The translations under genes and the position numbers were made by a program. A stretch of DNA of 64,000 nucleotides from Mycolicibacterium moriokaense. Its GTDB lineage: Bacteria > Actinomycetota > Actinomycetes > Mycobacteriales > Mycobacteriaceae. Positions 43,467 through 62,849 of this stretch are shown here, in pieces (the first letter of the stretch is position 1; each line of letters begins with the position of its first letter). Location of the stretch: positions 4,464,001 to 4,528,000 of the forward strand of contig NZ_AP022560.1 in the NCBI RefSeq assembly GCF_010726085.1. The letters are read 5' to 3'. Under the pieces are notes generated by a model. It was not told where the DNA came from and ran no database searches. It saw only the letters and a program-made list of their open reading frames with translations.

Positions 43467-45088
43467 GCGAGCTTGAAACCGGTGTAGCCCGCGTCGGCGA
43501 TCTCGTTGCAACGCCGCCGGTACTCGGGAATCCCCGCCGTGTAGCCCATGTACATCCGTTTCTTCCCAGGGACGTTGCCGCCGTTGTACCAGGAGTTGCA
43601 CGACGGATCGACCAACACGGTGGGCGCCACGAGTTCGGTGGTGTGCTCGATCCATTCCCGCTGCGCGTCCGGCAGTGCCTCGATGGTGCGGTATCCCTTG
43701 TCTCGCAGGTACCCGATACAGTCGCCGATCCACTCCACATGCTGCTCGAGTGCGGCCACGAAATTCGTTGCCGCCGAAGGGCTTCCTGGCGCCTGCACGA
43801 TGAAAAGATTCGGGAAACCCGCGACCGCGATCCCCAGATAGGTGTACGGGCCTTCCGATGTCCAGAAGTCGCCCAACAACATTCCGTCCCGGCCGTGGAC
43901 ATTGATTCGGGACAGCGCGCCCGTCATCGCATCGAAGCCGGTCGCGTAGATGATCACGTCGAGGTCGTAGTGGCCCTGCTCGGTACGGATGCCCGTCGGC
44001 GTGATCTCGACGATCGGCCCCTTGCGAAGGTCGACCAACGTCACGTTGTCGCGATTGAACGTCTCGTAGTAACCCTGGTCGATGATCGGCCGCTTGCACC
44101 CGAACGGATGGCTCGGCGTCAGCGATGCCGCCGTCTCCGGATCCTTCACGATGCGGGCGACAGCCTCCCCGTACAGCTTCGCGGCCATCCGGTTGGCCTC
44201 GATATCGAAGAACACGTCGCCCCAGCTGAGCGCACCCAGCACCCCGCCCTCTTCGATCGCGCGCAGCTGGTCCTGTCGCGACGCCGACTTCAGCGGCGGC
44301 TTCGACATCATCTCGAACATCACCGAGAACGCACTCAGCCGAGCGGCCCCGACCGCGTGATCGCGCTGTGCGGCGCGGATTTCGGCGTAGTTCGCCTTCA
44401 GTTCGTCGAGCTCGCCGTCGTCGAATGCGCGCACTTCCCACGGCAACGTGTACGCCGGCGAGCGCTGGAACACGGTGAGGTGCTCGACCTGTTGCGCCAC
44501 CACCGGGATCAGCTGCACGCCGGTGGACCCGGTGCCGATGACGCCGACACGCTTACCCGACAGGTCGAACCCTTCCTTCGGCCAGCGCGCGGTGAACAAC
44601 GATGCGCCGGTGAAGCTCTCCATCCCTGGAAAGTCGGGATCGATGGGCACCGACAGGATGCCGGAGGCGGCGACGACGTACGACGCGACGAACGTCTCGC
44701 CTGATTGGGTCTGGATCGCCCACTCGGCGGCATCTTCGTCAAAGGTCATCGCGACGACCTTGGTGTTGAACCGGATGTCGCGGCGGAGGTCCAGTTTGTC
44801 CGCGACGAAGTTCAGGTACGCCTCGATCTCCGGCTGGGCCGGCATGGTCTCCGTCCACACCCACTCCTGCTGGATCTCGTCGGAGAAGCTGTAGGAGTAC
44901 TCGATGCTCTCGATGTCGCAGCGCGCGCCGGGATACCGATTGAACAGCCAGGTTCCGCCGACGCCCTCGGCCGACTCGAGCGCGACCGTGCGGACACCCC
45001 GCTCACGCAGCAGGTGCAGCGCGTACAGACCGGAGAATCCCGCTCCGATGACGATCGCATCGAATCGGGCAGGGCTGGGCGTGGTCAC
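43463..45088 (-). CDS. flavin monooxygenase, Baeyer-Villiger type
   Basis: 541 residues, GTG start. FAD-binding GAGFSG at 15-20, the GTWLFNRYPGARCD segment typical of class B enzymes, and NADPH-binding GTGSTG near 187. The Baeyer-Villiger fingerprint F-x-G-x-x-x-H-x-x-x-W-P appears at 159-170 as FTGASLFTARWP, with Phe165 in place of His. It probably inserts oxygen next to a ketone. A perfect ACTGTAA-N3-TTACAGT palindrome ends 34 nt upstream (45123-45139). Co-transcribed with the alpha/beta hydrolase. Confidence 0.88.
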   Translation of the reverse strand: MTTPSPARFDAIVIGAGFSGLYALHLLRERGVRTVALESAEGVGGTWLFNRYPGARCDIESIEYSYSFSDEIQQEWVWTETMPAQPEIEAYLNFVADKLDLRRDIRFNTKVVAMTFDEDAAEWAIQTQSGETFVASYVVAASGILSVPIDPDFPGMESFTGASLFTARWPKEGFDLSGKRVGVIGTGSTGVQLIPVVAQQVEHLTVFQRSPAYTLPWEVRAFDDGELDELKANYAEIRAAQRDHAVGAARLSAFSVMFEMMSKPPLKSASRQDQLRAIEEGGVLGALSWGDVFFDIEANRMAAKLYGEAVARIVKDPETAASLTPSHPFGCKRPIIDQGYYETFNRDNVTLVDLRKGPIVEITPTGIRTEQGHYDLDVIIYATGFDAMTGALSRINVHGRDGMLLGDFWTSEGPYTYLGIAVAGFPNLFIVQAPGSPSAATNFVAALEQHVEWIGDCIGYLRDKGYRTIEALPDAQREWIEHTTELVAPTVLVDPSCNSWYNGGNVPGKKRMYMGYTAGIPEYRRRCNEIADAGYTGFKLA

Positions 45089-45122
45089 GGGTCGGCACCT
45101 CGTCTTCGCTCCGACGGCAGAT

Positions 45123-45139
45123 ACTGTAACTATTACAGT
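45123..45139. promoter_or_regulatory. island operator 1 (upstream of monooxygenase)
   Basis: ACTGTAACTATTACAGT, arms 7+7 with a 3-bp spacer; symmetry continues outward to 10+10 bp at 45120-45142. It lies 35 nt before the monooxygenase GTG. The same site recurs at four other island promoters. Confidence 0.8.
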
Positions 45140-45210
45140 ATCAGGCGCGGGGCGACCCGTTGACACAATCGGATGTCGACCGAGTCCGAGCCGATGCCGT
45201 CAGCGCAGGG

Positions 45211-46134
45211 TCACACTGCGCCCGCGCCCGCCAGCCGTTCCTCGCGGCGCCGCTCGTAGTGGCGGGCCCTCTCCTCCACGAGGTCGAGGAACGCTGCCAG
45301 CTCTTCGCGCGCACGCGCGCCCTCGCCGTCGATGTCGTCGCGCTCGAACACCTGCCAGAACCGCAACACCGGACGCACGACATCGTCGAGATGTGAACGG
45401 AGGTCGTAGATTCCGGCTTTGGCGATCGTCACCGCATTCTCTGCGAAGCCCGGCATGGTGCTGCCGGGCATCTGGAAGTTGATGACCTCGCGCGCGACGG
45501 CTTCCATCGTTGCGTTGGGCGAGATGTCGAACGCCGCCTCGACGAGGTTCCGGTAGAAGACCATGTGCAGGTTCTCGTCGGTCGCAACCCGGGTGAGGAG
45601 TTGTTCGGCGACCGGACAACCCGACGCCCGACCGGTGTTGCGGTGGCTGATCCGGGTCGCCAGTTCCTGGAACGACACGTACGCCAGCGCCTCCAGCATC
45701 GACTTGTCACCAGAGTCGTAGCCGGCCTTCATGTGCACCATGCGAGCCTGCTCGAGCGCGACGGGATCGACGCCGCGGGTGACGATGAGGTAGTCGCGAA
45801 TCGCGATGCTGTGCCGCGCCTCTTCGGCGGTCCACTGACCGACCCATTGCCCCCACGCGCCGTCCGGTCCGAAACGCAAGGCGATTTCGCGGTGGTAGGC
45901 GGGCAGGTTGTCCTCGGTCAGAAGGTTGACGACCAGGGCCGCCTTGGCGACGTCGTCGAGGGGCGAATCCTCCGGGACCCAGTCCTCTCCGCCGAGTAGT
46001 GCGAAGTCGCGCCCGCGGCTCCACGGCACGTAGTCGTGCGGGTTCCACGCCTTGGCCTTCTCGAGGTGGCGGTTCAGGTTCGCCTCCACCACCGGTTCCA
46101 GCTCGGTGAGCAATGCAGTTTGGGTTGACGTCAT
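45211..46134 (-). CDS. acyl-[acyl-carrier-protein] desaturase, DesA type
   Basis: 307 residues of the soluble di-iron desaturase family. Iron ligands appear as E in LLTEDNLPAYH, E-E-A-R-H near 105, E in SFQELATRISH and D-E-N-L-H near 195. It would introduce a double bond in an ACP-bound acyl chain. It resembles mycobacterial DesA1/DesA2. ATG at 46134 follows GAAAGACC. A separate palindrome, not the island operator, lies 41 nt upstream. Confidence 0.88.
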   Translation of the reverse strand: MTSTQTALLTELEPVVEANLNRHLEKAKAWNPHDYVPWSRGRDFALLGGEDWVPEDSPLDDVAKAALVVNLLTEDNLPAYHREIALRFGPDGAWGQWVGQWTAEEARHSIAIRDYLIVTRGVDPVALEQARMVHMKAGYDSGDKSMLEALAYVSFQELATRISHRNTGRASGCPVAEQLLTRVATDENLHMVFYRNLVEAAFDISPNATMEAVAREVINFQMPGSTMPGFAENAVTIAKAGIYDLRSHLDDVVRPVLRFWQVFERDDIDGEGARAREELAAFLDLVEERARHYERRREERLAGAGAV

Positions 46135-46174
46135 CGAGGTCTTTCCAATACTCAGGCTTTACCTACGGCTGCGT

Positions 46175-46194
46175 AACCTACGCTACCGTAGGTT
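46175..46194. promoter_or_regulatory. palindrome upstream of the desaturase
   Basis: AACCTACGCTACCGTAGGTT is a perfect 8-4-8 inverted repeat 41 nt before the desaturase start. It differs from the island operator and suggests a different regulator. A partial half (ACCTACGG) occurs just before it at 46161-46168. Confidence 0.6.
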
Positions 46195-46301
46195 GACGGA
46201 AATGCAAGCGTGTACGCAGTTCGGTCACGCATCCGTGCGACGCCTGACAGCCAGCCTCTTTCGCAGCCCCACCCCAGCGCGGCCCAGCTGTCGAAACCTC
46301 T

Positions 46302-46318
46302 ACTGTAATATCTTCCGT
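46302..46318. promoter_or_regulatory. island operator 2 (degenerate, upstream of Rieske gene)
   Basis: ACTGTAA-TAT-CTTCCGT keeps one full arm and the same spacing, with 4 of 7 matches in the other arm. It lies 28 nt before the Rieske GTG, the same kind of position as the perfect copies. Confidence 0.5.
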
Positions 46319-46346
46319 TGACTACGCTGGCTCACTAGGAGGCGAC

Positions 46347-47345
46347 GTGAAAGTCCCGTTCACCTGGAAAGTCACCGGCTGGTTCATGGTGGGTTGGTCG
46401 GCCGAGTTTCCTCAGGGCGAGACCCGTCCGCTTCGTTACTTCGGCGAAGACCTCGTCGCCTACCGCGACGAGTCGGGCGAACTGCATGTGCTGTCGGCGC
46501 ACTGCAGGCACCTCGGCGCGCACATCGGGCACGGCGGCAAGGTCGTCGGTGACTGTGTCGAATGCCCGTTCCACGGCTGGCGCTGGGGACCCGACGGGAC
46601 CAACCGCCACATCCCGTATCAACCGGATCGGCCCAACCGCGCGCTCAAGCTCCGGGTGTTTCCCGTCAACGAACAGCACGGCTGCGTGTTCGTCTGGCAT
46701 CAACCGCAGGGCAAGGAACCGCAGTGGGAGATGCCGGACATCTTCACGTCCTTCCCGCAGTTCGAGACCGACCCGTCGGCGTATTACCGTCCGTACCCTG
46801 AGTTTTCGCGCCGCACCGAAAACGAGCCGGTCCACCCGCAGATCGTCGCGGAGAACGGGCCGGACAGCTCGCACTTTCACTACGTGCACGGCGCGACCGT
46901 CACCCCGGTGAACCTGGAGTGGAAGATCGTCGGGCCGCAATGGCAGTTCCTCACCGGTTGGCCGGATGCCCGCAGCGACGATCCGAACAAGATGGCGTTG
47001 TACATCCACAGCCACATGTTCGGCCTCGGCGGGGCGATCAGCGTGTTCGAGGGCTCGTCGAATCACCGGCTGATCTTTGCCGTATCTCCTGTCGAGGACG
47101 GACTCTCGACGATGTTCTACTCGATCTGGTGGCCCAAGCGTGAGGGCGAGACGTCCGACATACCGCCGGACGACGTCCGCGAACGCGTCGAGAAGCAGTT
47201 CCTCCGCACGGTGTGGGAGGACCTCGACATCTGGCGCTATCAGGAGTACGTCGAGAATCCCCCGCTGGCGAAGATCGACGCGAAACCCTATATGACACTG
47301 CGGAAGTGGGCGCAGCAGTTCTACGAGGTACCCGCATCGGTATGA
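46347..47345 (+). CDS. Rieske non-haem iron oxygenase, terminal oxygenase subunit
   Basis: 332 residues. Rieske [2Fe-2S] motif C53-x-H55-x17-C-x2-H (CRHLGAH ... CPFHGW) and the mononuclear iron motif NGPD-xx-H-xxxx-H near residues 173-182. It resembles KshA-type or sterol-desaturase-type oxygenases rather than classical ring dioxygenase alpha subunits; no beta subunit or reductase is adjacent, so a KshB-like reductase elsewhere is assumed. GTG start follows AGGAGG closely. First gene of Rieske, remnant, thioesterase, CoA ligase unit with ATGA/GTGA overlaps throughout. Confidence 0.9.
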   Translation: MKVPFTWKVTGWFMVGWSAEFPQGETRPLRYFGEDLVAYRDESGELHVLSAHCRHLGAHIGHGGKVVGDCVECPFHGWRWGPDGTNRHIPYQPDRPNRALKLRVFPVNEQHGCVFVWHQPQGKEPQWEMPDIFTSFPQFETDPSAYYRPYPEFSRRTENEPVHPQIVAENGPDSSHFHYVHGATVTPVNLEWKIVGPQWQFLTGWPDARSDDPNKMALYIHSHMFGLGGAISVFEGSSNHRLIFAVSPVEDGLSTMFYSIWWPKREGETSDIPPDDVRERVEKQFLRTVWEDLDIWRYQEYVENPPLAKIDAKPYMTLRKWAQQFYEVPASV

Positions 47346-47515
47346 GAATCGACCTCGTCGAGCCGTCCCATACCGCGATCGTCACCCAGGAGTGCCAGGG
47401 CGCCGTCGCCGGCATCCCCATCAATTACGCGAACACGATCATCGACACCATGCTCTCGCTGCTCGCGACCATCACGACCACCGACGGCCTACTCGAGGCA
47501 GGGAAACCAGCGTGA
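47342..47515 (+). pseudogene. cysteine hydrolase (isochorismatase family) remnant with core deleted
   Basis: A 57-codon frame joined by overlaps to both neighbours. The first 22 residues (EPSHTAIVTQECQGAV) look like the start of an isochorismatase-like cysteine hydrolase, and the last 30 (YANTIIDTMLSLLATITTTDGLL) like its C-terminus. The central ~150 residues, including catalytic Lys and Cys, are absent. An in-frame internal deletion has left an open frame that still couples translation of the Rieske gene to the thioesterase. I infer decay; a genuine small protein is less likely. Confidence 0.65.
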
Positions 47516-48138
47516 CCGAAACCGACCGTCATATCCCGGCCGAGAGCGCCCCGTTCCCCGAGATCCAACCCGTCGACACCGGTCCCGAACTGGGCAGGTT
47601 CATGACCGCCATGCGACGCCTGCAGGACATCGTCGTGTCGACCAATCCGGACAACGCGCTGTGGGCCGACGCCGCCGGCCAGGTCGAAGAGTTGTGTGCG
47701 CGCCTGGAGGCCCACCGGGCTCCGCAGGGTGTTGCGCCCGCCGGTCGCGGGCCCCACCTGCCGGGTCTCGGTCATCCATTGATGCCGCCGTGGACGATGA
47801 CGGAGGTCGGCCCCCACGGCGTCGTCATGGAGGGCCAGTTCAGCCGCTTCCACGTCGGCGGCAACAACGCCGTGCACGGCGGCGTCATACCGTTGTTCTT
47901 CGACTGGCACTTCGGGATGATCGTCACGGCCGCGGGGCGCGCCAACAGCCGCACCGCCTTCCTACACGTCGACTACCGCAAGATCACGCCGATAGACCAA
48001 CCATTGGTTTCGCGCGGTCGGATAGATTCCATCGACGGGCGGAAGGCCTTCATCACTGCGACGATGACAGACTCTGACGGCAACGTCCTGAGTGAAGCCA
48101 ACGGCCTGATGGTCCGCCTGCTTCCGCACCAGCCATGA
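47512..48138 (+). CDS. hotdog-fold thioesterase (PaaI-like)
   Basis: 208 residues, GTG start overlapping the preceding stop. The hotdog core lies in the C-terminal half: NNAVHGGVIPLFFDWHFGMIVTAAG (H-G-G-V-I plus acidic Asp) and TAFLHVDYRKITPIDQPL. It probably hydrolyses an acyl-CoA or aromatic CoA formed in the pathway. The N-terminal 90 residues are a less conserved helical extension. Next gene overlaps by ATGA. Confidence 0.85.
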   Translation: MTETDRHIPAESAPFPEIQPVDTGPELGRFMTAMRRLQDIVVSTNPDNALWADAAGQVEELCARLEAHRAPQGVAPAGRGPHLPGLGHPLMPPWTMTEVGPHGVVMEGQFSRFHVGGNNAVHGGVIPLFFDWHFGMIVTAAGRANSRTAFLHVDYRKITPIDQPLVSRGRIDSIDGRKAFITATMTDSDGNVLSEANGLMVRLLPHQP

Positions 48139-49805
48139 GAGGCACGATGTCCGACTCCGCACCACAGTTCACCGTTCCGGCCGCCTTGGACACTGTCGCC
48201 GCGGTGATCGGTGACCGGGACTACGTCGTCCAGGGCGACCGCCGCTACACCTACGCCCAGATCCTGGAACGGTCCAACCGGCTCGCCTCCTACCTGCGCT
48301 CCCGCGGATTGGGCGTCAAGAAGGAGCGCTCGGAGCTCGCCGGCCACGAGGTGGGCCAGGACCTGCTCGGCATTTACGCCTACAACGGGCCCGAGTACGT
48401 CGAGTCGATGCTCGGATCGTGGCGCGCCCGGGTCGCACCGTTCAACGTCAACTACCGCTACGTGAAGAGCGAGCTGCACTACCTGCTCAACGATTCCGGT
48501 GCGACCGCGCTGGTCTACCACGCGAGGTTCGCACCCCGCGTCGCAGAGGTGCTCCCCCACCTTCCACACCTGCGCGTGCTCATCCAGATCGCCGACGAGT
48601 CAGGTAACGACCTCGTCCACGGTGCGGTCGACTACGAGTCGATCGTCGCGTCGGGGCCGTCCGCGCCGCCGCCGGTCGAGCCGTCGCCCGACGACCTCTA
48701 CGTCCTCTACACCGGCGGCACGACGGGCATGCCCAAGGGCGTGCTGTGGCGCCAGCACGACATCTTCATGACGTCGTTCGGCGGTCGCAACATGGGCACC
48801 GGCGAACTCACCCGGTCCTATGACGACATCGCGACGCGCGTCAAGGAGAACCCTGGCACCAAGATCTTCACCTTGCCGCCACTGATGCACGGCGCCGCAC
48901 AGTGGGCCGTGATGACCGCGCTCACCACAGGGCAGACGGTCGTGTTCGCGGAGAATCCGCACACGTTCGACGCCGACGAGGTCGTGCGAACGATCGAGCG
49001 GGAGAAGGTGCTGGCCGTGCAGGTGGTCGGCGACGCGATGGCGCGCCCGCTGGCCGACGCCATCGAACGCTCGTCGGCGGATCTGTCGTCGATGGCCGTG
49101 GTGGCCAACGGCGGGGCGCTGCTGACCCCGACCGCCAAGCAGCGACTGATCGACGTCAAGCCCGGCCTGATCGTCATGGACGGCGTCGGCTCCTCCGAGA
49201 CCGGGATCCAGATGAACCACATGTCGGCCCCCGGCGCCGTGTCGACCGGCAAGTTCAACGCCGGTCCGGACACCTTCGTCGCGTCCGAGGAACTCGATGC
49301 GATTCTCGAGCCCGGCCACGACGGCATCGGCTGGCTGGCGCAACGCGGTTACGTTCCCCTGGGCTACAAGGGCGATGAAGCCAAGACGGCCAAGACATTT
49401 CCGGTCATCGACGGCGTGCGGTTTTCGATACCGGGCGACCGTGCGCGCCATCTGGCCGACGGCGGTATCGAGCTGCTCGGCCGCGAGTCGCAGACCATCA
49501 ACTCGGGCGGGGAGAAGATCTTCGTCGAGGAGGTCGAGACTGCGCTGCTGTCGCACCCCGCGGTGGCCGACGTCGTGGTCTCCGGCCGTCCGAGCGAGCG
49601 GTGGGGGCAGGAAGTCGTCGCCATCGTGGCCCTCGTGGAAGGCGCCAGCGCGGACCCTCAGGAGCTGATCGACCATGCGTCGACGTCCATCGCGCGGTAC
49701 AAGCTGCCCAAGGCGGTGGTCTTCCGCCCCGTCATCGAGCGCAGCCCGGCGGGCAAGGCCGACTACCGATGGGCGCGTGAGCAGGCGATCAGCGGAGACG
49801 CTTAG
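48135..49805 (+). CDS. acyl-CoA synthetase (FadD19-like AMP-forming ligase)
   Basis: 556 residues. P-loop Y-T-G-G-T-T-G-M-P-K-G (~195), D-G-V-G-S-S-E-T-G (~355) and the hinge/C-terminal SINSGGEKIFVEEVE-like motif (here T-I-N-S-G-G-E-K-I), plus the terminal SPAGKADYRWA, closely resembling FadD19, the steroid C26 side-chain ligase of M. tuberculosis. It activates a carboxylic acid as its CoA thioester. ATG at 48135 overlaps the preceding stop; ATG at 48147 is an alternative. Confidence 0.9.
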   Translation: MRGTMSDSAPQFTVPAALDTVAAVIGDRDYVVQGDRRYTYAQILERSNRLASYLRSRGLGVKKERSELAGHEVGQDLLGIYAYNGPEYVESMLGSWRARVAPFNVNYRYVKSELHYLLNDSGATALVYHARFAPRVAEVLPHLPHLRVLIQIADESGNDLVHGAVDYESIVASGPSAPPPVEPSPDDLYVLYTGGTTGMPKGVLWRQHDIFMTSFGGRNMGTGELTRSYDDIATRVKENPGTKIFTLPPLMHGAAQWAVMTALTTGQTVVFAENPHTFDADEVVRTIEREKVLAVQVVGDAMARPLADAIERSSADLSSMAVVANGGALLTPTAKQRLIDVKPGLIVMDGVGSSETGIQMNHMSAPGAVSTGKFNAGPDTFVASEELDAILEPGHDGIGWLAQRGYVPLGYKGDEAKTAKTFPVIDGVRFSIPGDRARHLADGGIELLGRESQTINSGGEKIFVEEVETALLSHPAVADVVVSGRPSERWGQEVVAIVALVEGASADPQELIDHASTSIARYKLPKAVVFRPVIERSPAGKADYRWAREQAISGDA

Positions 49806-50173
49806 AACGACGGATCAGTCTGCGCAGCAAGGTAATTCCGTATACGGCACCTCGAAGCAGGCGGCGATCCTAGACACGAAACGGCTCGCCGGCCCCGCGT
49901 GGGCCGAGATCGGGGTGCGGGTCAACACCGTCAGCCCGGGACCCGTCGAAACACCGATCCTCGCCGACTTCGAAGCGACAATGGGCAAGGAGGTTCTCGA
50001 CATGTGCGGTCCACCGGGGCAGGCACGCGACCGTCGACGACATCGTTCCTGTCATCGCGTTCGTCGGTTCGCCGGAGGCACGCTGGATCACCGGCCAGGA
50101 CATTCACGTCGGCGCCGGCTTCCTTACCTCGATGACCGCTGGGCACCTATCCAGCTGGTATAGTCTACTGTAA
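49806..50173 (+). pseudogene. SDR C-terminal fragment with frameshift
   Basis: After the ligase stop, one frame reads SAQQGNSVYGTSKQAAILDTKRLAGPAWAEIG and then VRVNTVSPGPVETPIL, clear SDR sequence with the Y-x-x-x-K pair. After MGKEVLDMCG the reading shifts frame and continues as ATVDDIVPVIAFVGSPEARW and ITGQDIHVGAGFL to the SDR end. The N-terminal half (Rossmann loop) is missing. The stop codon TAA at 50171-50173 lies inside the operator upstream of the P450 gene. Not functional as an SDR. Confidence 0.8.
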
Positions 50174-50183
50174 TATTTACAGT
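50167..50183. promoter_or_regulatory. island operator 3 (upstream of P450-TetR)
   Basis: ACTGTAATATTTACAGT, perfect 7-3-7 palindrome (8-3-8 with flanks), 44 nt before the P450 start. It would control the P450 and the TetR gene behind it, giving autoregulation. Confidence 0.8.
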
Positions 50184-50227
50184 ACCGTTCGCAGGACCGA
50201 GCCGGACCCGGAGATGCTGGAGCAGTC

Positions 50228-51436
50228 GTGGAGAGCTCAGTGCACAACGTGACGGTCGAAGAGTCGGCCGACCTCCTTCGCGACCCCTATCCCCTGTTCG
50301 CCAGGAGACGGCACGAGTTCGGTGTCTTCAAGGGCAGCGTCATGGACTGGTCCAAGACGCCGGAGTCCATGCTTCCCGAAAACCTCTACGCCGCGGTCTC
50401 CTGGGATGCGGTCAACAGGGTGTTCCGTGACAGCAAGGCCTTCAACTCCCACATCTACGACAGCACCATCGGCTTGTTCATCGGCCCGACGATCCTCGCC
50501 ATGGAAGGCAAGAAGCACTGGGAGCACCGCAATCTGGTGTCCGCGGCGTTCAAGTCCCGGTCGCTGGCGCGATGGGAACCCGAGATCGTCCGCCCGGTCG
50601 TCAACGGGCTGATCGACGAGTTCATCGATGCCGGCCACGCCGATCTGGTCAAGCAGTTCACCCTCGAGTTCCCAACCCGGGTCATCTCGAAGCTGTTGGG
50701 TCTGCCCGAGGAAGACCTGCCGTGGTTCCGCAAGCGTGCGGTCGAGTTGATCAGCTACCACGTCAAATGGAAGCGCGCCTTCGAGGCGTCCGCGGCGCTG
50801 AAAGACTATTTCCTGCAACAGATCGAGCTGCGCCGCAGCAAGCCGACCGAGGACATCATCGGCGATCTGGTGACCGCCGAGATCGACGGCGAGAAGCTCT
50901 CCGACGAAGCCATCTACTCTTTCCTGCGTCTCTTGCTGCCCGCCGGGCTGGAAACCACCTTCCGTTCATCGGGAAACCTGATCTTCCTGCTGCTCACCCA
51001 TCCCGAGCAGTTCCGGGCGGTGCAGGCCGACCGCAGCCTCATCGCACCCGCGATCGAGGAAGGACTGCGGTACGAGACACCACTGACGACGGTGCAGCGC
51101 TACGCCACCGAGGAGACCGAAGTCGAGGGCGTCACCATTCCGCAGGGTGCGGTCATCGACGTGTGCATCGGATCGGCCAACCGTGACGAACGTCGGTGGG
51201 AACGCTCCGAGGAGTTCGACATCCACCGGAAACGCCTGCCGCACATCTCCTTTGCCGCGGGTGAGCACACCTGTATGGGGCTGCACCTCGCTCGCATGGA
51301 GACACGCGTCGCGCTCGAGTGCCTGTTGGACCGGCTGACCGATATCGAACTCGTCACCGACGACAACCCGCACATCCACGGGCAACCCTTCCGCTCCCCC
51401 ACCGCCATTCCCGTCACGTTCGCCCCCGCCGGTTGA
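50228..51436 (+). CDS. cytochrome P450
   Basis: 402 residues, GTG start. I-helix A-G-L-E-T-T-F near 240 (Glu in place of the usual Asp), ExxR in EEGLRYE, and haem motif F-A-A-G-E-H-T-C-M-G near 350. The first 60 residues are less typical. Class I P450 of the catabolic island, controlled by operator 3 and followed after 3 bp by the TetR gene. Substrate unknown; hydroxylation of an alicyclic intermediate fits the context. Confidence 0.9.
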   Translation: MESSVHNVTVEESADLLRDPYPLFARRRHEFGVFKGSVMDWSKTPESMLPENLYAAVSWDAVNRVFRDSKAFNSHIYDSTIGLFIGPTILAMEGKKHWEHRNLVSAAFKSRSLARWEPEIVRPVVNGLIDEFIDAGHADLVKQFTLEFPTRVISKLLGLPEEDLPWFRKRAVELISYHVKWKRAFEASAALKDYFLQQIELRRSKPTEDIIGDLVTAEIDGEKLSDEAIYSFLRLLLPAGLETTFRSSGNLIFLLLTHPEQFRAVQADRSLIAPAIEEGLRYETPLTTVQRYATEETEVEGVTIPQGAVIDVCIGSANRDERRWERSEEFDIHRKRLPHISFAAGEHTCMGLHLARMETRVALECLLDRLTDIELVTDDNPHIHGQPFRSPTAIPVTFAPAG

Positions 51437-51439
51437 GTT

Positions 51440-52081
51440 GTGGCCGCCAACACGAAGGCCGAGGTCCGCAAGCGACGGGACCGCGGATCGATCAGTGTCG
51501 ACGAAATCATCTCCGGCGCTTTCGAGGTCGCTGATCAGGTATCGATCGACAACCTGAGCATGCCGGTGCTCGCGAAACATCTCGACATCGGAGTCACGAG
51601 CATCTACTGGTACTTCCGGCGCAAGGACGACCTGCTCGACGCAATGGCCGATCGAGCGCTGGAGCAGTTCGAGTTCACGGTGCCGACCATCGACGCGACC
51701 AACTGGCGTACGTCGCTTCGTGACCACGCACGGACCATGCGCGCACACTTCCGGGACAATCCGACCCTCTGCGATCTCGTGCTCATCCGCGGCCAGTTCA
51801 GCGGGCGCGCGGTACGCGGGGCACTCCACAAGATCGAACAACCCATTACGGCGCTCATCGAGGCCGGTCTAGACGCCGAACCGGCCGCCGCCACCTACGG
51901 AGCGATCTCGGTACACACCCGCGGTTCCGCCGTGCTGGAGCGCATTCAGGCCAAGACCGAGGGATTTCCCGCGCAGCGCTCGAACGGTAAGCGCTACATC
52001 GGTTTTGCCGACAACATCGACTACGACTACATCCTCGAAAGCATTCTCGACCACGCGCAGACGCTCATCGACGCGTCGTGA
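51440..52081 (+). CDS. TetR family regulator, likely controller of the catabolic island
   Basis: 213 residues, GTG start. Helix-turn-helix SIDNLSMPVLAKHLDIGVTSIYWYFRRKDDLLDAM at about 35-70; the rest is the helical ligand domain. It lies directly behind the P450 gene, and the ACTGTAA-N3-TTACAGT site before that gene recurs at four other island promoters. It is the only regulator gene in the island, so it is the best candidate to bind this site. Its stop abuts the stop of the convergent aldehyde dehydrogenase with no gap. A CoA thioester or hydroxylated substrate is a likely ligand, by analogy with KstR-type regulators. Confidence 0.88.
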   Translation: MAANTKAEVRKRRDRGSISVDEIISGAFEVADQVSIDNLSMPVLAKHLDIGVTSIYWYFRRKDDLLDAMADRALEQFEFTVPTIDATNWRTSLRDHARTMRAHFRDNPTLCDLVLIRGQFSGRAVRGALHKIEQPITALIEAGLDAEPAAATYGAISVHTRGSAVLERIQAKTEGFPAQRSNGKRYIGFADNIDYDYILESILDHAQTLIDAS

Positions 52082-53629
52082 TCATCTCTGGCGAGGCACC
52101 CGGCAAGCGATCGTCTTCGTCTCGAGGTACTGCTGAAAACCCTCGATGCCACATTGACGCCCCACGCCGCTGTTCTTGTACCCGCCGAACGGCGCATCCG
52201 CGCCGTAGAACATCCCGCCGTTGACGCCGAAGGATCCGGTGCGGATGCGGCGGGCGATGTCCATACCGCGCTCCATCGATCGCGAGATCACAGCTCCCGC
52301 AAGGCCGTACGCGCTGTCGTTCGCGATGCGCACCGCGTGATCGTCGTCGTCGAACGGCATCACGATCAGCACCGGGCCGAAGACTTCCTCCTGGGCGATC
52401 GCCGCGCTGTTGTCGACCCCGACGATCACCGTCGGCTCCACGTAGTGCCCGCCGGCAAGGTGTTCGGGCAGGTTGTCGACGGTGCCTCCGCCCGTGGTGA
52501 TCTCGGCCCCTTCTGCGCGCGCCCGCTCCACAGCCATGAGCACGCGGTCCTTCTGCGCGGCGCTGATCACCGGCCCGACAAGGGTTTCCGGCAGCACCGG
52601 ATCTCCGACCGGCACATTCTGGTATGCGGCGGTGACGGTGGCGACGGCCTCGTCGTACAGCGACCGATGCACGAGCATCCGGGTGGTGGCCGCGCACGCC
52701 TGACCGGCGTGCACGCACACTCCGATCGCGGCGCCCAGGACCGCAGCGGGGTTGGCATCGTCGAGCACGATGGCCACGGATTTGCCGCCGAGTTCGAGGA
52801 ACATCCGCTTCATGGTGTCGGCGCCCTGCCGCATCAACAGCTTGCCGACGGCCGTCGAGCCGGTGAACGAAATCATGTCGACACGCGGATCGGTGCCGAC
52901 GAGTCCGGCGACGTCGTTGGACGGGGTCGTCACCACGTTCAGCACGCCCGCCGGAATGTCGGTGCGCTCGGCGACGAGCCTGCCGAGCCGCGTCGCGTTC
53001 CACGGCGTGTTCGGATCCGGTTTGAGGACAACGGTATTGCCCGCCGCCAGGGCAGGCCCCAGCTTGTTGAGGATGACTTCGATCGGGAAGTTGGACGGGG
53101 TGATCGCCGCGACGACGCCGACTGGTTCCTTGACCACGGTGCGCACGTTGCGTTCGCCGAACAACCCGCCGCCATCGAGCGTGCGCTCCCACTCGAAGTC
53201 GTCGATCAAGCCGGCGGGATAGCGCAGCGATTCGGCGACCGGCCATTCCAGTTGTGCGGTCTGCGTCGTCATCGCCGGAGCGCCCGCCTCGGCGATCAGT
53301 TCCTCGCGCAGGTCTTGCTTCTCGGACTCGATGGCCACCTGCAATTGAGTCAGGCACCGCTTACGCAACGCGCGGTTGGTCGACCAGTCGGTTTCGTCGA
53401 ACGCGCGGCGGGCCGCCGCGATGGCAAGACTTATGTCGTCAGCGCCTGCGGCGGCCGTCGCACCCAGCAGCAACCCCGTCGCCGGGCTGAAGTTGTCGAA
53501 GGTGGCCCCGGAGGACGCTGCAACGAGCTCGCCGTCGATCAGCATGCGCGACTCGGCGCGTGCCGCCGCCCGCACGCCCACGTCGACGCTGGTTTCGGTC
53601 CGGTCTACTTGGTCCTCGGTGAGGCTCAC
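52082..53629 (-). CDS. aldehyde dehydrogenase (NAD(P)+)
   Basis: 515 residues, GTG start. Cofactor site T-P-S-N-F-P near 180 and F-T-G-S-T-A-V-G near 256, catalytic Glu279 in F-L-E-L-G-G-K-S, catalytic Cys312 in H-A-G-Q-A-C-A, and EEVFGPV near the C-terminus. It oxidises an aldehyde to an acid. Divergent from the CoA-transferase gene and sharing operator 4 with it. Confidence 0.92.
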   Translation of the reverse strand: MSLTEDQVDRTETSVDVGVRAAARAESRMLIDGELVAASSGATFDNFSPATGLLLGATAAAGADDISLAIAAARRAFDETDWSTNRALRKRCLTQLQVAIESEKQDLREELIAEAGAPAMTTQTAQLEWPVAESLRYPAGLIDDFEWERTLDGGGLFGERNVRTVVKEPVGVVAAITPSNFPIEVILNKLGPALAAGNTVVLKPDPNTPWNATRLGRLVAERTDIPAGVLNVVTTPSNDVAGLVGTDPRVDMISFTGSTAVGKLLMRQGADTMKRMFLELGGKSVAIVLDDANPAAVLGAAIGVCVHAGQACAATTRMLVHRSLYDEAVATVTAAYQNVPVGDPVLPETLVGPVISAAQKDRVLMAVERARAEGAEITTGGGTVDNLPEHLAGGHYVEPTVIVGVDNSAAIAQEEVFGPVLIVMPFDDDDHAVRIANDSAYGLAGAVISRSMERGMDIARRIRTGSFGVNGGMFYGADAPFGGYKNSGVGRQCGIEGFQQYLETKTIACRVPRQR

Positions 53630-53672
53630 CAGTTACCTCGTACAATTCAGAACAAACAATGCTGGACGCTCA

Positions 53673-53689
53673 ACTGTAACGATTACAGT
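53673..53689. promoter_or_regulatory. island operator 4 (ALDH/CoA-transferase divergent gap)
   Basis: ACTGTAACGATTACAGT, perfect 7-3-7 palindrome, 43 nt upstream of the ALDH GTG and 39 nt upstream of the CoA-transferase start, so one site can serve both. An extra GATTACA half follows at 53694-53700. Confidence 0.8.
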
Positions 53690-53728
53690 AGGCGATTACA
53701 ACGACGAGACGGGCTGGAGAGAGTCGAC

Positions 53729-54955
53729 TTGATCAAGGTGATGGACGGCGTTCGCGTCCTCGAGGTTGCGCAGTTCACGTTCGTTCCGGCCGCGGGGGCG
53801 ATCCTCGCCGATTGGGGCGCGGACGTCATCAAGGTCGAGCACCCGGTGCGCGGTGACACGCAGCGCGGCTTCGTCAACATGGGCGGTTTCCAGCTGGATC
53901 CGAACCGGCACCCGCTGATCGAGCACCCCAATCGGGGTAAGCGCAGCGTCGGTATCGACGTGTCCACCCCCGGCGGTCAGGAAGTGCTCTACGAGATCGC
54001 CAAGACCGCCGATGTGTTCCTCACCAACTACATGCCCGCGCAGCGGCAGAAGAACAAGTTCGACGTCGAACACATCCGTGCGGTCAACCCGAACATCGTC
54101 TACGCGCGTGGCAGCGCCTACGGGGACAAGGGCGCCGAACGCGACACCGGCGGATTCGACGGCACCGCGTTCTGGACGCGCAGCGGTGTGGGCCATGCGC
54201 TGACCCCCGAAGAGCTCGGCGGCGCGTTGTCGCAGGGCATCCCGGCGTTCGGCGACTCCATCGGCGGGATGAACATCGCGGGCGGCATCTCGGCGGCGCT
54301 GTTTCATCGCGAACGCACCGGCGAGGCAGTCGAACTCGACGTCTCGCTGCTGAGCACCGCATGGTGGGCGGCGGGCGCCAGCGTCACGCAGGGCATGGAG
54401 ACCGGCGAGACCATGCGCTCGCAGATGCCCGACACGATCGGCCCGACCGTGAACCCGTTCCTCGGCAACTACCTCACCTCCGACGGGGGCACCATCAACC
54501 TGTGCATAGTCAGCCCCACGGGGTATATCCGTGATGCGTTCGAACATCTCGACCTGCCCGAGCTGGCCGACGACCCTCGGTTCAACGACGTCATGCCGCT
54601 AATCGAAAACGCCGCAGCGGCAGCGGAACTGATCGCTGAATCCATCCGGAGCAAGCCCTTCGACTACTGGCGCAAGCGGCTGAAGACCATGAAAGGTCAG
54701 TGGGCGCCGTTCCAGAGCCTCGTCGATCTCGCGTCCGACGAGCAGGCGATCGCCAACGACATGATCGTCGAGGTGGAGGCCGCCGACGGCGGAGCCCCGT
54801 TCAAGGTCGTGCGCGGCCCCGTCCAGTTCAACCACGAACCGCTCGAGACGACGCGTGCCCCGCAGGCGTCCGAGCACACCGAGATCGTGCTCATGGAACT
54901 CGGAATGGACTGGGATCGCATCGAGGAGCTCAAGAACGCCGGCGCCATCGCCTAG
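53729..54955 (+). CDS. CaiB/BaiF-type (class III) CoA-transferase
   Basis: 408 residues. Opening V-L-E-V-A-Q-F-T-F-V-P-A-A-G-A-I-L-A-D-W-G-A-D-V-I-K-V-E and N-R-G-K-R-S-V are class III signatures; the catalytic Asp is expected in the GGFDG segment near 150. It moves CoA between a donor thioester and an acid, or may act as a racemase-like relative. TTG at 53729 follows GGAGAG at a good distance; ATG at 53741 is the alternative. Under operator 4. Confidence 0.9.
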   Translation: MIKVMDGVRVLEVAQFTFVPAAGAILADWGADVIKVEHPVRGDTQRGFVNMGGFQLDPNRHPLIEHPNRGKRSVGIDVSTPGGQEVLYEIAKTADVFLTNYMPAQRQKNKFDVEHIRAVNPNIVYARGSAYGDKGAERDTGGFDGTAFWTRSGVGHALTPEELGGALSQGIPAFGDSIGGMNIAGGISAALFHRERTGEAVELDVSLLSTAWWAAGASVTQGMETGETMRSQMPDTIGPTVNPFLGNYLTSDGGTINLCIVSPTGYIRDAFEHLDLPELADDPRFNDVMPLIENAAAAAELIAESIRSKPFDYWRKRLKTMKGQWAPFQSLVDLASDEQAIANDMIVEVEAADGGAPFKVVRGPVQFNHEPLETTRAPQASEHTEIVLMELGMDWDRIEELKNAGAIA

Positions 54956-55072
54956 CCCTCGTTGAATGTTGAGGCAGATGCCCCACGTGTCACGCTGGTT
55001 CGTCGGCGCACTGTGTCCCCATGAGAATTCTCCGCCCGCGGACAAGCGGACAGAAACATCTGGGAGGCAATC

Positions 55073-56719
55073 ATGTTCACCATCGACGAGCTGGCCGCGC
55101 TTCCGCTCTTCTCGAATCTCGAGGAGAAGGCGCTGGAGTACCTTGTCGGCGAAGTTGAGGACATACATCTAGCGGCAGGCGAGTACGTCGCGCACGAGGG
55201 TGACATCCGTGCCCTGGCCGTTGTGGTCGAGGGCAAGACGGAGCTGACGAAGCAGGTCAACGGTGTCGAGCAGGTGATCGGCGTCCGGCTACCCGGCGAA
55301 CTCGGAGGCGAGATCCCGATGACGCTCGGCACGCCCTTGCCCGCGAGCATGCGGGCCATCGCGCCGTCACGTGTGCTGAAGGTGACCGTCGAGGTCTACC
55401 ACACGCTGTCGGCGATGGCGCCGGAAATCTCCGAAGCAGTCGGGGCGGCCGCGCTGGAGCGCATCCAAATGCTCAGCAGCGCCACGGCGCAGCCAAACGA
55501 CGCCGCGATATCCGTCATCGGTCCCCGCCTCGACCCGAAGGTGCATAGCTGCGACAGCTTCCTCTACCGCAACCAGATTCCGTACGAACGCCTCGACCAG
55601 GACGATTCGCGCGCCATCGCGCGCACCGGCGGTCAATCGACCGTCGCGGCGCCCTATCCGGTGGTAGTGCTCCGCGACGGCACTCAGCTCACTGCCCCAA
55701 CGATGCGTGCCGTCGCCACGCTCTCGGGCCTGACTGTCAAACCGGCCTTGTCGCATTACGACGTGGTGATCGTCGGAGGCGGTCCGGCAGGATTGACGGC
55801 AGCGGTCAACGCCGCATCCGAGGGTCTGAAGACCGCGCTGATCGAGTCGTTCGCCCCGGGTGGTCAGGCGGGCACCTCGACGCGGATCGAGAACTACACG
55901 GGGTTCCCGTACGGGGTTTCCGGCGACGAGCTCGCCAGGCGGGCACTTCAACAGGCCAAGCGACTCGGCGCTGAGATCGTCGTGACCCGTAGGGTCGAAG
56001 ACATCGATCCCGCTGAGATGACCATCGGGCTCGACGGCGGCGACATGCTGCGGACCAGGGCGATCGTTCTCGCGACCGGGGTGGAGTGGCGGCGCCTCGG
56101 ACTCGATTCCATCGATCGATTCATCGGATCCGGCGTGTACTACGGTGCGGCGCCCAGCGATGCAGGTCTTGCGCAGGGCAACGACCTCTATCTGATCGGC
56201 GCAGGCAACTCCGCCGGGCAGGCCGCGATCTTCTTCTCCAACCACGCCCGCTCCGTGACGCTGATCGTTCGCGGCGAATCGCTTTCAGAAAGCATGTCGC
56301 ACTATCTCATTGAGCAGATCGGAGCCAAGGCGAACATCCGGGTGGAAACTCAGTCGGAGGTCGTCACGGCGTACGGCGACGACCAACTCGACTCGATCGA
56401 CGTGATCGATCGCAAGACCGGCATGACATCACGACGGGAGGCGAAGGTGCTCTTCGTCCTGATCGGCGCCGAAGCGGCGACCGGATGGTTGCCTCCGGAG
56501 ATCTCGCGCGACAGCCACGGATTCGTCTTGACGGGAACCGATGCGATGAACTCAGGACTGTGGAGTACCGAACGCGAACCCTTCCCTCTCGAGACGAGCG
56601 CGCCCGGCATTTTCGCCATCGGCGACGTCCGCTCCGGATCGGTGAAGCGCGTGGCGGCATCCGTCGGTGAGGGCGGGGTGGCGATCGCGCACGTGCATCG
56701 TTACCTCGCGGGGTCCTGA
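55073..56719 (+). CDS. three-domain FAD oxidoreductase: cNMP-binding, glutaredoxin-like, TrxR-like
   Basis: 548 residues. Residues 1-130 form a cyclic-nucleotide-binding-type beta barrel (LPLFSNLEEKALEYL ... GELGGE). Residues 145-215 look glutaredoxin/thioredoxin-like (VIGPRLDPKVHSCDSFLYRNQIPYERLD, then YPVVVLRDG). Residues 228-548 are a thioredoxin-reductase-like FAD/NAD module with GGGPAG at 235-240, GAGNSAG and FAIGDVR. Where TrxR has its CxxC, this protein reads YYGAAPSDA (356-364), so it has no redox disulfide. ATG follows GGGAGG. Function unknown; cAMP-gated electron transfer is a guess. Confidence 0.82.
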   Translation: MFTIDELAALPLFSNLEEKALEYLVGEVEDIHLAAGEYVAHEGDIRALAVVVEGKTELTKQVNGVEQVIGVRLPGELGGEIPMTLGTPLPASMRAIAPSRVLKVTVEVYHTLSAMAPEISEAVGAAALERIQMLSSATAQPNDAAISVIGPRLDPKVHSCDSFLYRNQIPYERLDQDDSRAIARTGGQSTVAAPYPVVVLRDGTQLTAPTMRAVATLSGLTVKPALSHYDVVIVGGGPAGLTAAVNAASEGLKTALIESFAPGGQAGTSTRIENYTGFPYGVSGDELARRALQQAKRLGAEIVVTRRVEDIDPAEMTIGLDGGDMLRTRAIVLATGVEWRRLGLDSIDRFIGSGVYYGAAPSDAGLAQGNDLYLIGAGNSAGQAAIFFSNHARSVTLIVRGESLSESMSHYLIEQIGAKANIRVETQSEVVTAYGDDQLDSIDVIDRKTGMTSRREAKVLFVLIGAEAATGWLPPEISRDSHGFVLTGTDAMNSGLWSTEREPFPLETSAPGIFAIGDVRSGSVKRVAASVGEGGVAIAHVHRYLAGS

Positions 56720-56720
56720 C

Positions 56721-57032
56721 ATGAACCCGACAGTCTCCGACGCCACCGACCGCAGACGTATTGAAATCGCCGCCGGCGAAACGGTTCTGGGTTACGTCGA
56801 GTACCGCCGCCGGCCCGGCGTCATCTCATTGCTGCACACCGAGATCGACCCGGCGCGCAAAGGCGAAGGTCTCGGGACTCGGCTGATCAAGGGCGCGCTC
56901 GACATCGCCCGCGCTGAGGGCTTGGCGGTACAGCCCTACTGCCCGTTCGTGCAGCGCTTCATCGCCCGTCACCGCGAGTATCTCGACCTGGTACCCGCGG
57001 CGCGACGCGCAGACTTCGGATTAGCCCGCTGA
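56721..57032 (+). CDS. GNAT-like N-acetyltransferase (YidJ/Gtn1 group)
   Basis: 103 residues. The single-domain short GNAT pattern is visible: GYVEYRRRPGVISLLHTEIDPARKGEGLGTRLIKGALDIARAEGLAVQPYCPFVQRFIARH, including the acetyl-CoA loop R-K-G-E-G-L-G-T. ATG follows directly after the oxidoreductase stop, so it is probably co-transcribed. Confidence 0.88.
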   Translation: MNPTVSDATDRRRIEIAAGETVLGYVEYRRRPGVISLLHTEIDPARKGEGLGTRLIKGALDIARAEGLAVQPYCPFVQRFIARHREYLDLVPAARRADFGLAR

Positions 57033-57042
57033 CCCGCCCACG

Positions 57043-57101
57043 TTGACTCTGCGCTCAGGGCGTCGGTTGCTCGACTTCTTGCGCCGTAGACGCAGAGTCA
57101 A
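57043..57101. terminator. inverted repeat at a convergent junction
   Basis: TTGACTCTGCG (57043-57053) pairs with CGCAGAGTCAA (57091-57101). One arm is downstream of the oxidoreductase stop (57055) and the other lies within its last codons. The 37-nt loop makes it less certain than the other hairpins. Confidence 0.5.
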
Positions 57102-59280
57102 TCCGCTCGACGCGCACAGGTACCCCTGTCAGCCACGCCATTCCAGACACCGACTCGACGTCGTCGGGCTCGCTGGACGTCAGCCGATTGACGTTCGCCC
57201 CGCCGGCGCGGTTGGCCAACTGCCATCCGCCGGTGCCCTTGTGGCCCCAACCGTGTGGAATGGCGACGACGCCGGCGACGAGGTCCTTCGTCGAGGTGAC
57301 CGGCACAGTGATCTGGCCGTACGGCGAACTGATCTGCACGATGTCGCCGTCAGCGATCTGCAGCTCCGCCGCATCGTCGACGTGCATGAGCGCGTAGTGA
57401 CGACGCTCGCCGCGCATCAGCAACGGCGAGTTGTGCATCCATGAGTTCTCCGAGCGTGGCTCTCGCATCCCGATCATCTTCAGCGGGTAGCCCTCCGGAT
57501 AGTCGTTGCGGGTCAGCTTGGCGACCTCGTCGGCGATCTCCGAATGCACCAGCTGGACGCGACGCGACAGATAGCCCACCGCGTCACGCAGCACGCCGGT
57601 ACGGATATGCGGCGCCACCACCACCCCGTGCGGATGCTGTTCGGTCAGACGACGCAGCGACAGTCCTCCGCGGCGCAGTCCGAAAAGGTCGCCACCCTGC
57701 GACATCCGGACGAGCCCATCCATCATGATGCGCGGTGTCAGCGTAGCTCCGAAGGCGCTCAACGCCTTTCGTGCGGCGGCGAAGGCCGCGAACATCGGGA
57801 CCCGCCGTCCAAGTCGAGATGCGAGGTCTGCGACGATGTCCCATTCCGTGCGCGCCTCCCCTGCCGGGGCGACGACGGCCTCGGTGGCTTGACGAAATGG
57901 CGTGGCCTGAAAACCCTGGAACGTGTAGGGGAAGTCGTCGCGCTCGTACATCGTGGTGACGGGCAGGATGTAGTCACACCGCGCGGTGGTTTCCGTGACG
58001 TAGAAATCGAGCGCCACCGACAGTTCCAGGGTCTCGAAGGCGGCCTCGAGTTCGTCGCCGTTGGGCACCGAGAGCACCGGGTTGCCCGCCGACACGAACA
58101 TCGCCTTGATCTGACGGTCGCCGGGTGTCGTGATCTCCTTGGCCATCAGTGCGGCCGGCTCGGAACCGATTGCACTGGGAATACCGTTGATACGCGAGCG
58201 CCTGCGCCGGCGTGAGCGCCGCATCACGACGCCCATCATGGTGTTCTGCCATTTCTGGCCGACGGTCTGCATCGTGCTGAACACCGAACCGCCCGGCACG
58301 TCGAGGTTTCGCGCGACAAGGTTGACGGCGTCGATCAGGTACGTCGTCAGCGTGCCGTACCGACCCACGCAGGTACCGAGTCTTCCGTAGATGGCCGCGC
58401 GCGGCGTGCGGACGAGGTCACGCGCCAGCGCCCTGACGCTCGCGGGGTCGATGCCCGTGTGCGAGGCCGTCGCCTCCGGTGTGAACGGTTCACTCAGCGA
58501 GCGCAGCCACTCCACACCGTCCGCGTCCCCACTCACCCTGGCGATGTCGACGAGCTGCTCGGCGAACATGACCTGCAGCAGCGACAGCAGCAGAAAAGAA
58601 TCGGAGTCGGGCACGATACCGAGCCACTCGAATGCAACGGCGGTTTCGGTTCGGCGGGGATCGACAACCACCACACGCCCTCCCCGCTTGACGATGTCGT
58701 GCATGCGGTCCTTGATCCGGGGCGCCGTCAGGAAGCTGCCGTGCGAGACGACGGGGTTGGCGCCCATCAGCACCAACAGTTCGGTCCGCGTGAGGTCGGG
58801 GATCGGCACCGACATCGGCACGCCGTACAGCAGCTGGCTGGCGATCAGCCGGCTGTTCGTGTCCTGCGACGACGCGGTGAAGTAGTGCCCATGGGGGCCA
58901 AGGCCCTTGATGAACAACAGCGCCGCAAAGGTGTGGGCGTAACTGAACGCACCCGGGTTACCCATATACCAGCCGACACCACCGGAACCATGCCGGCGCA
59001 GCACTGCCGACAACCGCGCCGCGATATCGGACATCGCGTCGTCCCACGTGACCGGTTCGAAGCCGTTCGGTCCACGGCGCAGCGGCGTCGTCACACGATC
59101 CGGGTCGTTCTGGACCTCGGTGAAGGCGATGCCCTTCTGGCACGCGAACCCCGCCGACAGCGGATGTTCCTTGTCGGGGCGCAACGCGACGAGACGGCCG
59201 TCCTCGACGGTCGCGATCATGCCGCAGAGCGGCTCACATATCCGGCAGAACGTGGGCTTGTGTTCAATCACCGGGGCCAC
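57055..59280 (-). CDS. molybdopterin oxidoreductase, DMSO reductase family
   Basis: 741 residues. N-terminal 4Fe-4S cysteines F-C-R-I-C-E-P-L-C with the fourth in GFACQKG, then the bis-MGD domains (VLMGANPVVSH, VVVDPRRTETA, FVSAGNPVLS) and the C-terminal MopB-binding domain (ISSPYGQITVPV). No Tat signal, so cytoplasmic. The closest M. tuberculosis type I recall is Rv0197. The redox substrate is unknown; Mo-dependent hydroxylases of steroid side chains exist in this superfamily in anaerobes, but no evidence links them here. GTG at 59280; GTG at 59271 is possible. Confidence 0.85.
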   Translation of the reverse strand: MAPVIEHKPTFCRICEPLCGMIATVEDGRLVALRPDKEHPLSAGFACQKGIAFTEVQNDPDRVTTPLRRGPNGFEPVTWDDAMSDIAARLSAVLRRHGSGGVGWYMGNPGAFSYAHTFAALLFIKGLGPHGHYFTASSQDTNSRLIASQLLYGVPMSVPIPDLTRTELLVLMGANPVVSHGSFLTAPRIKDRMHDIVKRGGRVVVVDPRRTETAVAFEWLGIVPDSDSFLLLSLLQVMFAEQLVDIARVSGDADGVEWLRSLSEPFTPEATASHTGIDPASVRALARDLVRTPRAAIYGRLGTCVGRYGTLTTYLIDAVNLVARNLDVPGGSVFSTMQTVGQKWQNTMMGVVMRRSRRRRRSRINGIPSAIGSEPAALMAKEITTPGDRQIKAMFVSAGNPVLSVPNGDELEAAFETLELSVALDFYVTETTARCDYILPVTTMYERDDFPYTFQGFQATPFRQATEAVVAPAGEARTEWDIVADLASRLGRRVPMFAAFAAARKALSAFGATLTPRIMMDGLVRMSQGGDLFGLRRGGLSLRRLTEQHPHGVVVAPHIRTGVLRDAVGYLSRRVQLVHSEIADEVAKLTRNDYPEGYPLKMIGMREPRSENSWMHNSPLLMRGERRHYALMHVDDAAELQIADGDIVQISSPYGQITVPVTSTKDLVAGVVAIPHGWGHKGTGGWQLANRAGGANVNRLTSSEPDDVESVSGMAWLTGVPVRVERIDSASTAQEVEQPTP

Positions 59281-59292
59281 GTCGACTACGAT

Positions 59293-59309
59293 ACTGTAAT
59301 CATTACAGT
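59293..59309. promoter_or_regulatory. island operator 5 (Mo-oxidoreductase/thiolase-like divergent gap)
   Basis: ACTGTAATCATTACAGT, perfect 7-3-7 palindrome in the 72-bp gap: 12 nt before the Mo-oxidoreductase start and 43 nt before the thiolase-like ATG. Confidence 0.8.
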
Positions 59310-62841: not shown

Positions 62842-62849
62842 TGCGCCCC

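Follow-up and report, generated by a model that had tools for sequence, protein, structure and literature searches.

The window analysed here, a stretch of 64,000 nucleotides from Mycolicibacterium moriokaense (contig NZ_AP022560.1, positions 4,464,001 to 4,528,000), contains an island of oxygenase and coenzyme A (CoA)-thioester catabolic genes whose promoters carry the palindrome ACTGTAAN3TTACAGT (Table 1). Within the island a cytochrome P450 gene is followed directly by the gene of a TetR-type regulator, TetR1. The gene of a paralogue with 55% identity, TetR2, is found 19 kb further downstream, outside the window, at genome positions 4534531-4535217. The palindrome is likely the operator of a TetR-type repressor regulon of this island, with TetR2 as the conserved reader and, in this genome, probably TetR1 as well. 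Computation supports the operator itself; it also shows the site kept at the same promoters and occurring together with TetR2 and the P450, and the recognition helix identical in both regulators.

Table 1. Operator sites and genes of the island, numbered on the window.
Feature	Position	Strand	Remark
Operator 1, perfect	45123..45139	.	34 nucleotides (nt) before the start (GTG 45088) of the Baeyer-Villiger-type monooxygenase (BVMO)
Operator 2, weak, three mismatches	46302..46318	.	Left arm intact; 28 nt before the Rieske gene start
Operator 3, perfect	50167..50183	.	44 nt before the P450-TetR1 gene pair
Operator 4, perfect	53673..53689	.	Between the divergent aldehyde dehydrogenase (43 nt) and CoA-transferase (39 nt) genes
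Operator 5, perfect	59293..59309	.	Between the divergent molybdopterin oxidoreductase (12 nt) and thiolase (43 nt) genes
Flavin monooxygenase, Baeyer-Villiger type (BVMO)	43463..45088	-	Start taken GTG 45088; listed open reading frame extends to 45166 across the operator
Fatty-acid desaturase-like gene (FA_desaturase_2)	45211..46134	-	Divergent from the Rieske gene
Rieske oxygenase with KshA-type C-terminal domain	46347..47345	+	
Thioesterase-superfamily protein	47392..48138	+	
Acyl-CoA synthetase (FadD)	48135..49805	+	PRK07798 subfamily, above cut-off
Cytochrome P450	50228..51436	+	Presence tracks the operator across the genus sample
TetR1, TetR-type regulator	51440..52081	+	Directly behind the P450 gene
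Aldehyde dehydrogenase (ALDH), Rv0768-like paralogue	52082..53629	-	Below the Rv0768 family cut-off
Family III CoA-transferase	53729..54955	+	
Molybdopterin oxidoreductase	57055..59280	-	
Thiolase-like protein	59353..60501	+	Nearest lipid-transfer-protein models, below their cut-offs
Epimerase/3beta-HSD-like protein and two acyl-CoA dehydrogenases	60619..63893	-	Last window genes; end of the run starting at the TetR2 divergent promoter

All four perfect 17-mers, like the degraded copy before the Rieske gene (ACTGTAATATCTTCCGT, three mismatches), were re-found where the first-pass annotation had placed them. Its statement that they stand close to start codons was borne out at 12-44 nt from the starts taken, as was the sharing of two sites by divergent genes, so that five sites serve seven gene starts. 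The genome-wide scan that it had proposed returned only these four perfect copies in 6,225,779 bases, every one within the island, where base composition predicts 0.0016 per genome and a second-order Markov model of the window 0.0001, a recurrence beyond chance as had been claimed. Allowing up to three mismatches gave seven matches in the window where 0.20 were expected, a number reached in none of 100 shuffles; two of the three-mismatch matches, at 22546 and 38160, are taken as noise. The sole further copy in the genome with two mismatches lies at 4534392 (70392 on the scale of the window, beyond its end). At that tolerance the operator gave five matches per strand and the reversed control pattern three, so the count alone gives this copy no meaning; scans of this kind stood at noise level in eight genomes (0-6 matches per strand for the operator, 2-7 for the control) and were never used alone.

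The annotation had also called for the operator to be sought in related mycobacteria, where orthologous promoters do keep it. The promoter sample consisted of 60 stretches from 34 of 148 sampled genomes, taken around TetR homologues or sites and hence enriched for the cluster; regions were unselected for mismatch count, and one mononucleotide shuffle per region served as control. The P450 promoters of relatives carry a perfect site in 23 of 24 cases and one with at most one mismatch in all 24 (shuffled minimum 4). Sites with at most one mismatch precede ALDH in 18/18 regions and the molybdopterin enzyme in 15/16 (shuffled minimum 5 for both), the CoA-transferase in 13/18 and the thiolase in 11/22. 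For the BVMO, counted with the reference taken from codon 27, the site was perfect in 10 of 15 regions, within one mismatch in 12 and within two in 13 (shuffled minimum 5). Rieske promoters have their own site with two or three mismatches in 12 of 19 regions, the BVMO-side site instead in six and none in one (shuffled minimum 4). Upstream of FadD, the thioesterase, FadEa, a second thiolase and a GntR gene, no region came below four mismatches, and the epimerase promoter, with a site of at most two mismatches in 3/13, was not used. The spacer and flanks of relatives' sites vary while the arms are kept, a comparison restricted to sites with at most one mismatch, so that arm conservation there is partly by construction.

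Among the 68 perfect sites in these stretches, 62 stand at starts of island orthologues and six shortly before other P450 or CoA-transferase homologues (L123 8398, L126 7978, L129 8243, L134 3692, L136 18371 and L157 6829); the latter are possible extra members of the regulon in relatives. Separately, a two-mismatch copy, ACTGTCGTSCTTACAGT, recurs about 400-900 nt before the P450 operator in eight loci (L071-L074, L076-L078 and L080), preceded in seven of them by a second aldehyde dehydrogenase-like match that has no counterpart in the window.

The distribution of the operator was followed across the 148 sampled genomes of the genus, with cut-offs of E 1e-20 for TetR1/TetR2 homologues and E 1e-160 for the P450. 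The perfect site was found in 89 genomes, a TetR1/TetR2 homologue in 118 and the P450 in 92, the last count depending on the cut (109 at E 1e-100). All 89 site-bearing genomes have both the P450 and a homologue; the perfect site occurs in 0/30 genomes without a TetR1/TetR2 homologue and in 0/26 with a homologue but without the P450. The three P450 genomes that lack a perfect site carry sites with one or two mismatches near the P450. In a family-wide sample of 201 genomes, the perfect site was present in 13 of 15 members of the genus and in one of 186 from other genera, where the reversed control also gave one; in this sample the operator characterises the genus.

A search with TetR2 found it, at 67% identity or above, in 88 of the 89 genomes that bear the site and in 91 of the 92 that have the P450. 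TetR1 candidates occur in at most 29 of the 92, 15 of them clear and 14 provisional, the latter called by a second match and doubtful in G089, G059, G030 and G147. The P450 genomes without a TetR1 candidate keep the perfect site in 60 of 63 cases, which indicates that TetR1 is not needed for site retention and is not the general reader. Four of them (G004, G013, G018 and G135) have four sites each, and the site precedes the P450 in all eight genomes of this group whose P450 region was examined (G004, G007, G016, G022, G037, G060, G081 and G096). That TetR1 alone reads the operators is improbable on these counts, even though its gene lies behind the P450 and a perfect site, and even though genomes with the closest TetR1 type, 15 in all, carry three or four perfect sites each (one exception has one) versus one or two in most genomes without a TetR1 candidate. 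TetR2 fits better as the simplest constant partner of the operator, an association rather than a proof.

TetR2 also has a version of the element at its own promoter. The single two-mismatch copy of the genome, mentioned above, falls in the gap that separates the minus-strand genes from TetR2, on the upstream side of the latter. The element at the divergent promoter of TetR2 reads ACTATAGGN2TTACAGT, ACGATAGGN2TTACAGT or variants of these in 33 genomes, M. moriokaense included, with the TTACAGT half exact in 27 of the 33. The best site had two or three mismatches in 28 of 34 TetR2 upstream regions, and one shuffle per region never came below four. The first-pass annotation had named TetR1 the only regulator gene in the island and assigned the sites to it on that ground. 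It is indeed the only one in the stretch named, but the cluster continues past the window end, and TetR2 stands there. A TetR-type protein remains the best candidate for the reader; the assignment to TetR1 as sole regulator is not supported, given the presence of TetR2 in 88 of 89 site-bearing genomes, its identical recognition helix and the operator copy at its promoter.

The two paralogues resemble each other most where they would touch DNA. PF00440, the N-terminal TetR helix-turn-helix (HTH) domain, was found in both, and TetR2 carries a TetR_C_1 domain in addition. Structure models of both show an all-helical TetR fold, with mean pLDDT of 83.1 for TetR1 and 76.2 for TetR2. A search of the genome with TetR1 returned TetR2 as the only close homologue, the other nine matches being at E 4e-9 or weaker. 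TetR1 and TetR2 form separate clades (support 100/98); one TetR copy, from L139 (G059), falls between them and lies away from the island. The recognition stretch VGVTSIYWYFR[RK]K is identical in 80/80 rows counted, a count that omits L092, L114, L155, L157 and L099 (the last with the same stretch) and mixes two locus sets, so that some genomes enter twice (9 of the 35 named loci are also among L101-L160). Within the 60 residues of the HTH part TetR1 and TetR2 are on average 74% identical, and elsewhere 46%, as computed over 16 TetR1 and 30 TetR2 sequences from L101-L160 with L092, L114, L155, L157 and the intermediate L139 left out. Between 22 TetR1 and 12 TetR2 sequences, 28 positions are fixed differently, of which 23 fall in the ligand part, 5 among the first 75 residues and none within the recognition stretch. 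Such a pattern would suit a pair of proteins with a common operator but different signals to sense.

Each regulator has a palindromic operator at its own or a neighbouring promoter, at the level of presence: the site at 50167 before the P450-TetR1 pair, and the element at the TetR2 divergent promoter. At every locus where TetR1 was mapped, its gene still follows the P450 gene that carries the operator, and in this genome TetR1 would probably read the same sites. A rather unlikely alternative is that TetR2 alone reads the operators, TetR1 having drifted to another job or acting on its own operon only. TetR2 is the constant partner with a conserved site at its promoter, and TetR1 is the more variable protein (62% versus 78% mean within-clade identity outside the HTH), both as this alternative would have it; the recognition stretch and the place behind the P450 that TetR1 has retained argue the other way.

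Several observations weigh against a regulon read by TetR2 and TetR1. The copy at the TetR2 promoter is asymmetric, mostly with two or three mismatches. One site-bearing genome, G147, a fragmented assembly of 700 contigs, has only a 59% TetR2 match; in another, G132 (L120), the TetR2 match is in two pieces and the promoter element is weaker (four mismatches), so that TetR2 may be damaged there, and this genome has retained TetR1 together with the operator at the P450. Across the sample the P450 is the closer companion of the perfect site (89/92, against 89/118 for the TetR homologues), and the site is present in 0/21 genomes that have TetR2 but lack the P450, which would allow its link with TetR2 to be a secondary one. 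Genome counts are, moreover, uncorrected for shared ancestry, which together with the closer tracking of the P450 leaves the link between TetR2 and the site an association. The same tracking would suit a different regulator, such as the GntR/FCD protein encoded near TetR2, or one whose gene is unlinked. This is very improbable: the site is found in 0/10 GntR upstream regions (all with at least six mismatches) versus 28/34 TetR2 regions at two or three, and the perfect site is missing from all 30 genomes without a TetR1/TetR2 homologue.

The genes so marked look like a pathway for the breakdown of an alicyclic or steroid-like compound via CoA thioesters. NCBIfam and PDB comparisons of the island enzymes gave mostly general or below-cut-off matches and singled out no substrate. 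Beyond the window (L101), the minus strand continues with acyl-CoA dehydrogenases, two amidohydrolase-family proteins, an acyl-CoA synthetase, an enoyl-CoA hydratase, a DHDPS-family protein and a short-chain dehydrogenase, followed by TetR2 on the plus strand. The whole minus-strand run from the TetR2 divergent promoter back to the last window genes may form one operon. Whether the desaturase-like gene belongs to the regulon is uncertain; it is preceded at 46162-46192 by a separate inverted repeat, CCTACGG...CCGTAGG, unlike the operator. Between FadD and the P450 operator (49806-50166) lies a decayed short-chain dehydrogenase remnant, its C-terminal part in two frames, and similar DNA precedes the P450 in 6 of 11 relatives compared. 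Positions 55073-56719 encode a cyclic-nucleotide-binding domain fused to a thioredoxin-reductase-like flavoprotein.

In the mechanism proposed, ACTGTAAN3TTACAGT would be the operator of a local repressor regulon over the catabolic island. TetR2 would be the conserved reader, and TetR1, with the same DNA-reading head, would read the same sites in this genome. TetR dimers would cover the core promoters, at 12-44 nt from the start codons, and keep the genes off until a compound of the pathway, perhaps a CoA thioester, binds them; dimerisation, DNA binding, repression rather than activation, the ligand and the part played by TetR1 are all predictions. A more tentative extension, which may well prove wrong, is that the two paralogous repressors, with the same DNA head and diverged ligand pockets, jointly hold the operator set as a two-input switch. 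The asymmetric sites at the TetR2 and Rieske promoters could then tune such a switch or favour heterodimers.

A TetR-type regulon of this kind supplies a sharply defined operator and two candidate readers for an island common across the genus (with the P450 in 92/148 genomes and the perfect site in 89/148). The ligand, once found, would point to the substrate of the island. The regulon had been described as previously unlabelled, and literature searches on the motif or on such a paralogue pair indeed returned no earlier description among the papers listed.

The sterol regulators of mycobacteria are among the closest known systems. The KstR2 regulon is likewise small, local, of TetR type and made up of CoA-thioester catabolic genes, and its palindromic operator stands at a small number of divergent promoters close to the gene of the regulator (PMC3068626). 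It differs in its operator (AnCAAGnnCTTGnT), in its single regulator where a paralogue pair is present here, and in its genes (PMC3068626). KstR is also of TetR type, with a palindromic operator at lipid-gene promoters that overlaps the putative -10 element in its own promoter; its operator is TnnAACnnGTTnnA, and its regulon is reported to be large, whereas the one described here is local (PMC1995591). In a third system, that of Rv0767c and motif X, a mycobacterial TetR and a palindrome before P450, aldehyde dehydrogenase and short-chain dehydrogenase genes are again combined (PMC6593523, PMC4482099).

That the sites belong to one of these described regulators, KstR, KstR2 or Rv0767c, is extremely improbable. 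The island does have KshA-, FadD- and IpdE2-like genes, and motif X is reported at P450, dehydrogenase and short-chain dehydrogenase genes (PMC6593523). A published KstR probe (Rv3525c/Rv3526; PMC1995591) even contains the half ACTGTAAC, which speaks for KstR and against a separate regulon and is taken here as chance. Scans of the 64-kb window gave no exact match to either the KstR motif TnnAACnnGTTnnA or the KstR2 motif AnCAAGnnCTTGnT, in agreement with the first-pass view that the operator is unlike both, and the two were set aside as readers. For Rv0767c, the genome has an above-cut-off Rv0768 homologue at 1340005. The TetR beside it, judged from its neighbourhood to be the Rv0767c orthologue, is absent from the 11 matches to TetR1 at E 0.001. 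Two GGACACTTGTCC palindromes (positions 1299 and 1445 of L161) stand around the dehydrogenase-TetR gap of this locus and are perhaps the Rv0767c operator. Rv0767c was set aside on this ground: the palindrome at its corresponding locus is GGACACTTGTCC, not ACTGTAAN3TTACAGT, the comparison being made through the locus rather than the motif X logo. Rv0767c sites are reported to be rich in GAC/GTC and poor in TAA/TTA (PMC10312376), which agrees with GGACACTTGTCC and speaks against Rv0767c as reader of the present sites.

In fold, both paralogues resemble the tetracycline repressor TetR. Tetracycline repressors, or engineered versions of these, rank highest among the PDB matches of both the TetR1 and the TetR2 model, and the TetR_C_1 domain of TetR2 is a further point of likeness. 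Identity to these structures is 18-29%, however, and no efflux gene is found among the annotated island neighbours here. The tetO operator, too, differs from ACTGTAAN3TTACAGT. A local TetR regulon is, as such, a known type of system; the interesting part is the paralogue pair, a natural case of how duplicated TetR repressors may share an operator while changing the ligand that they sense.

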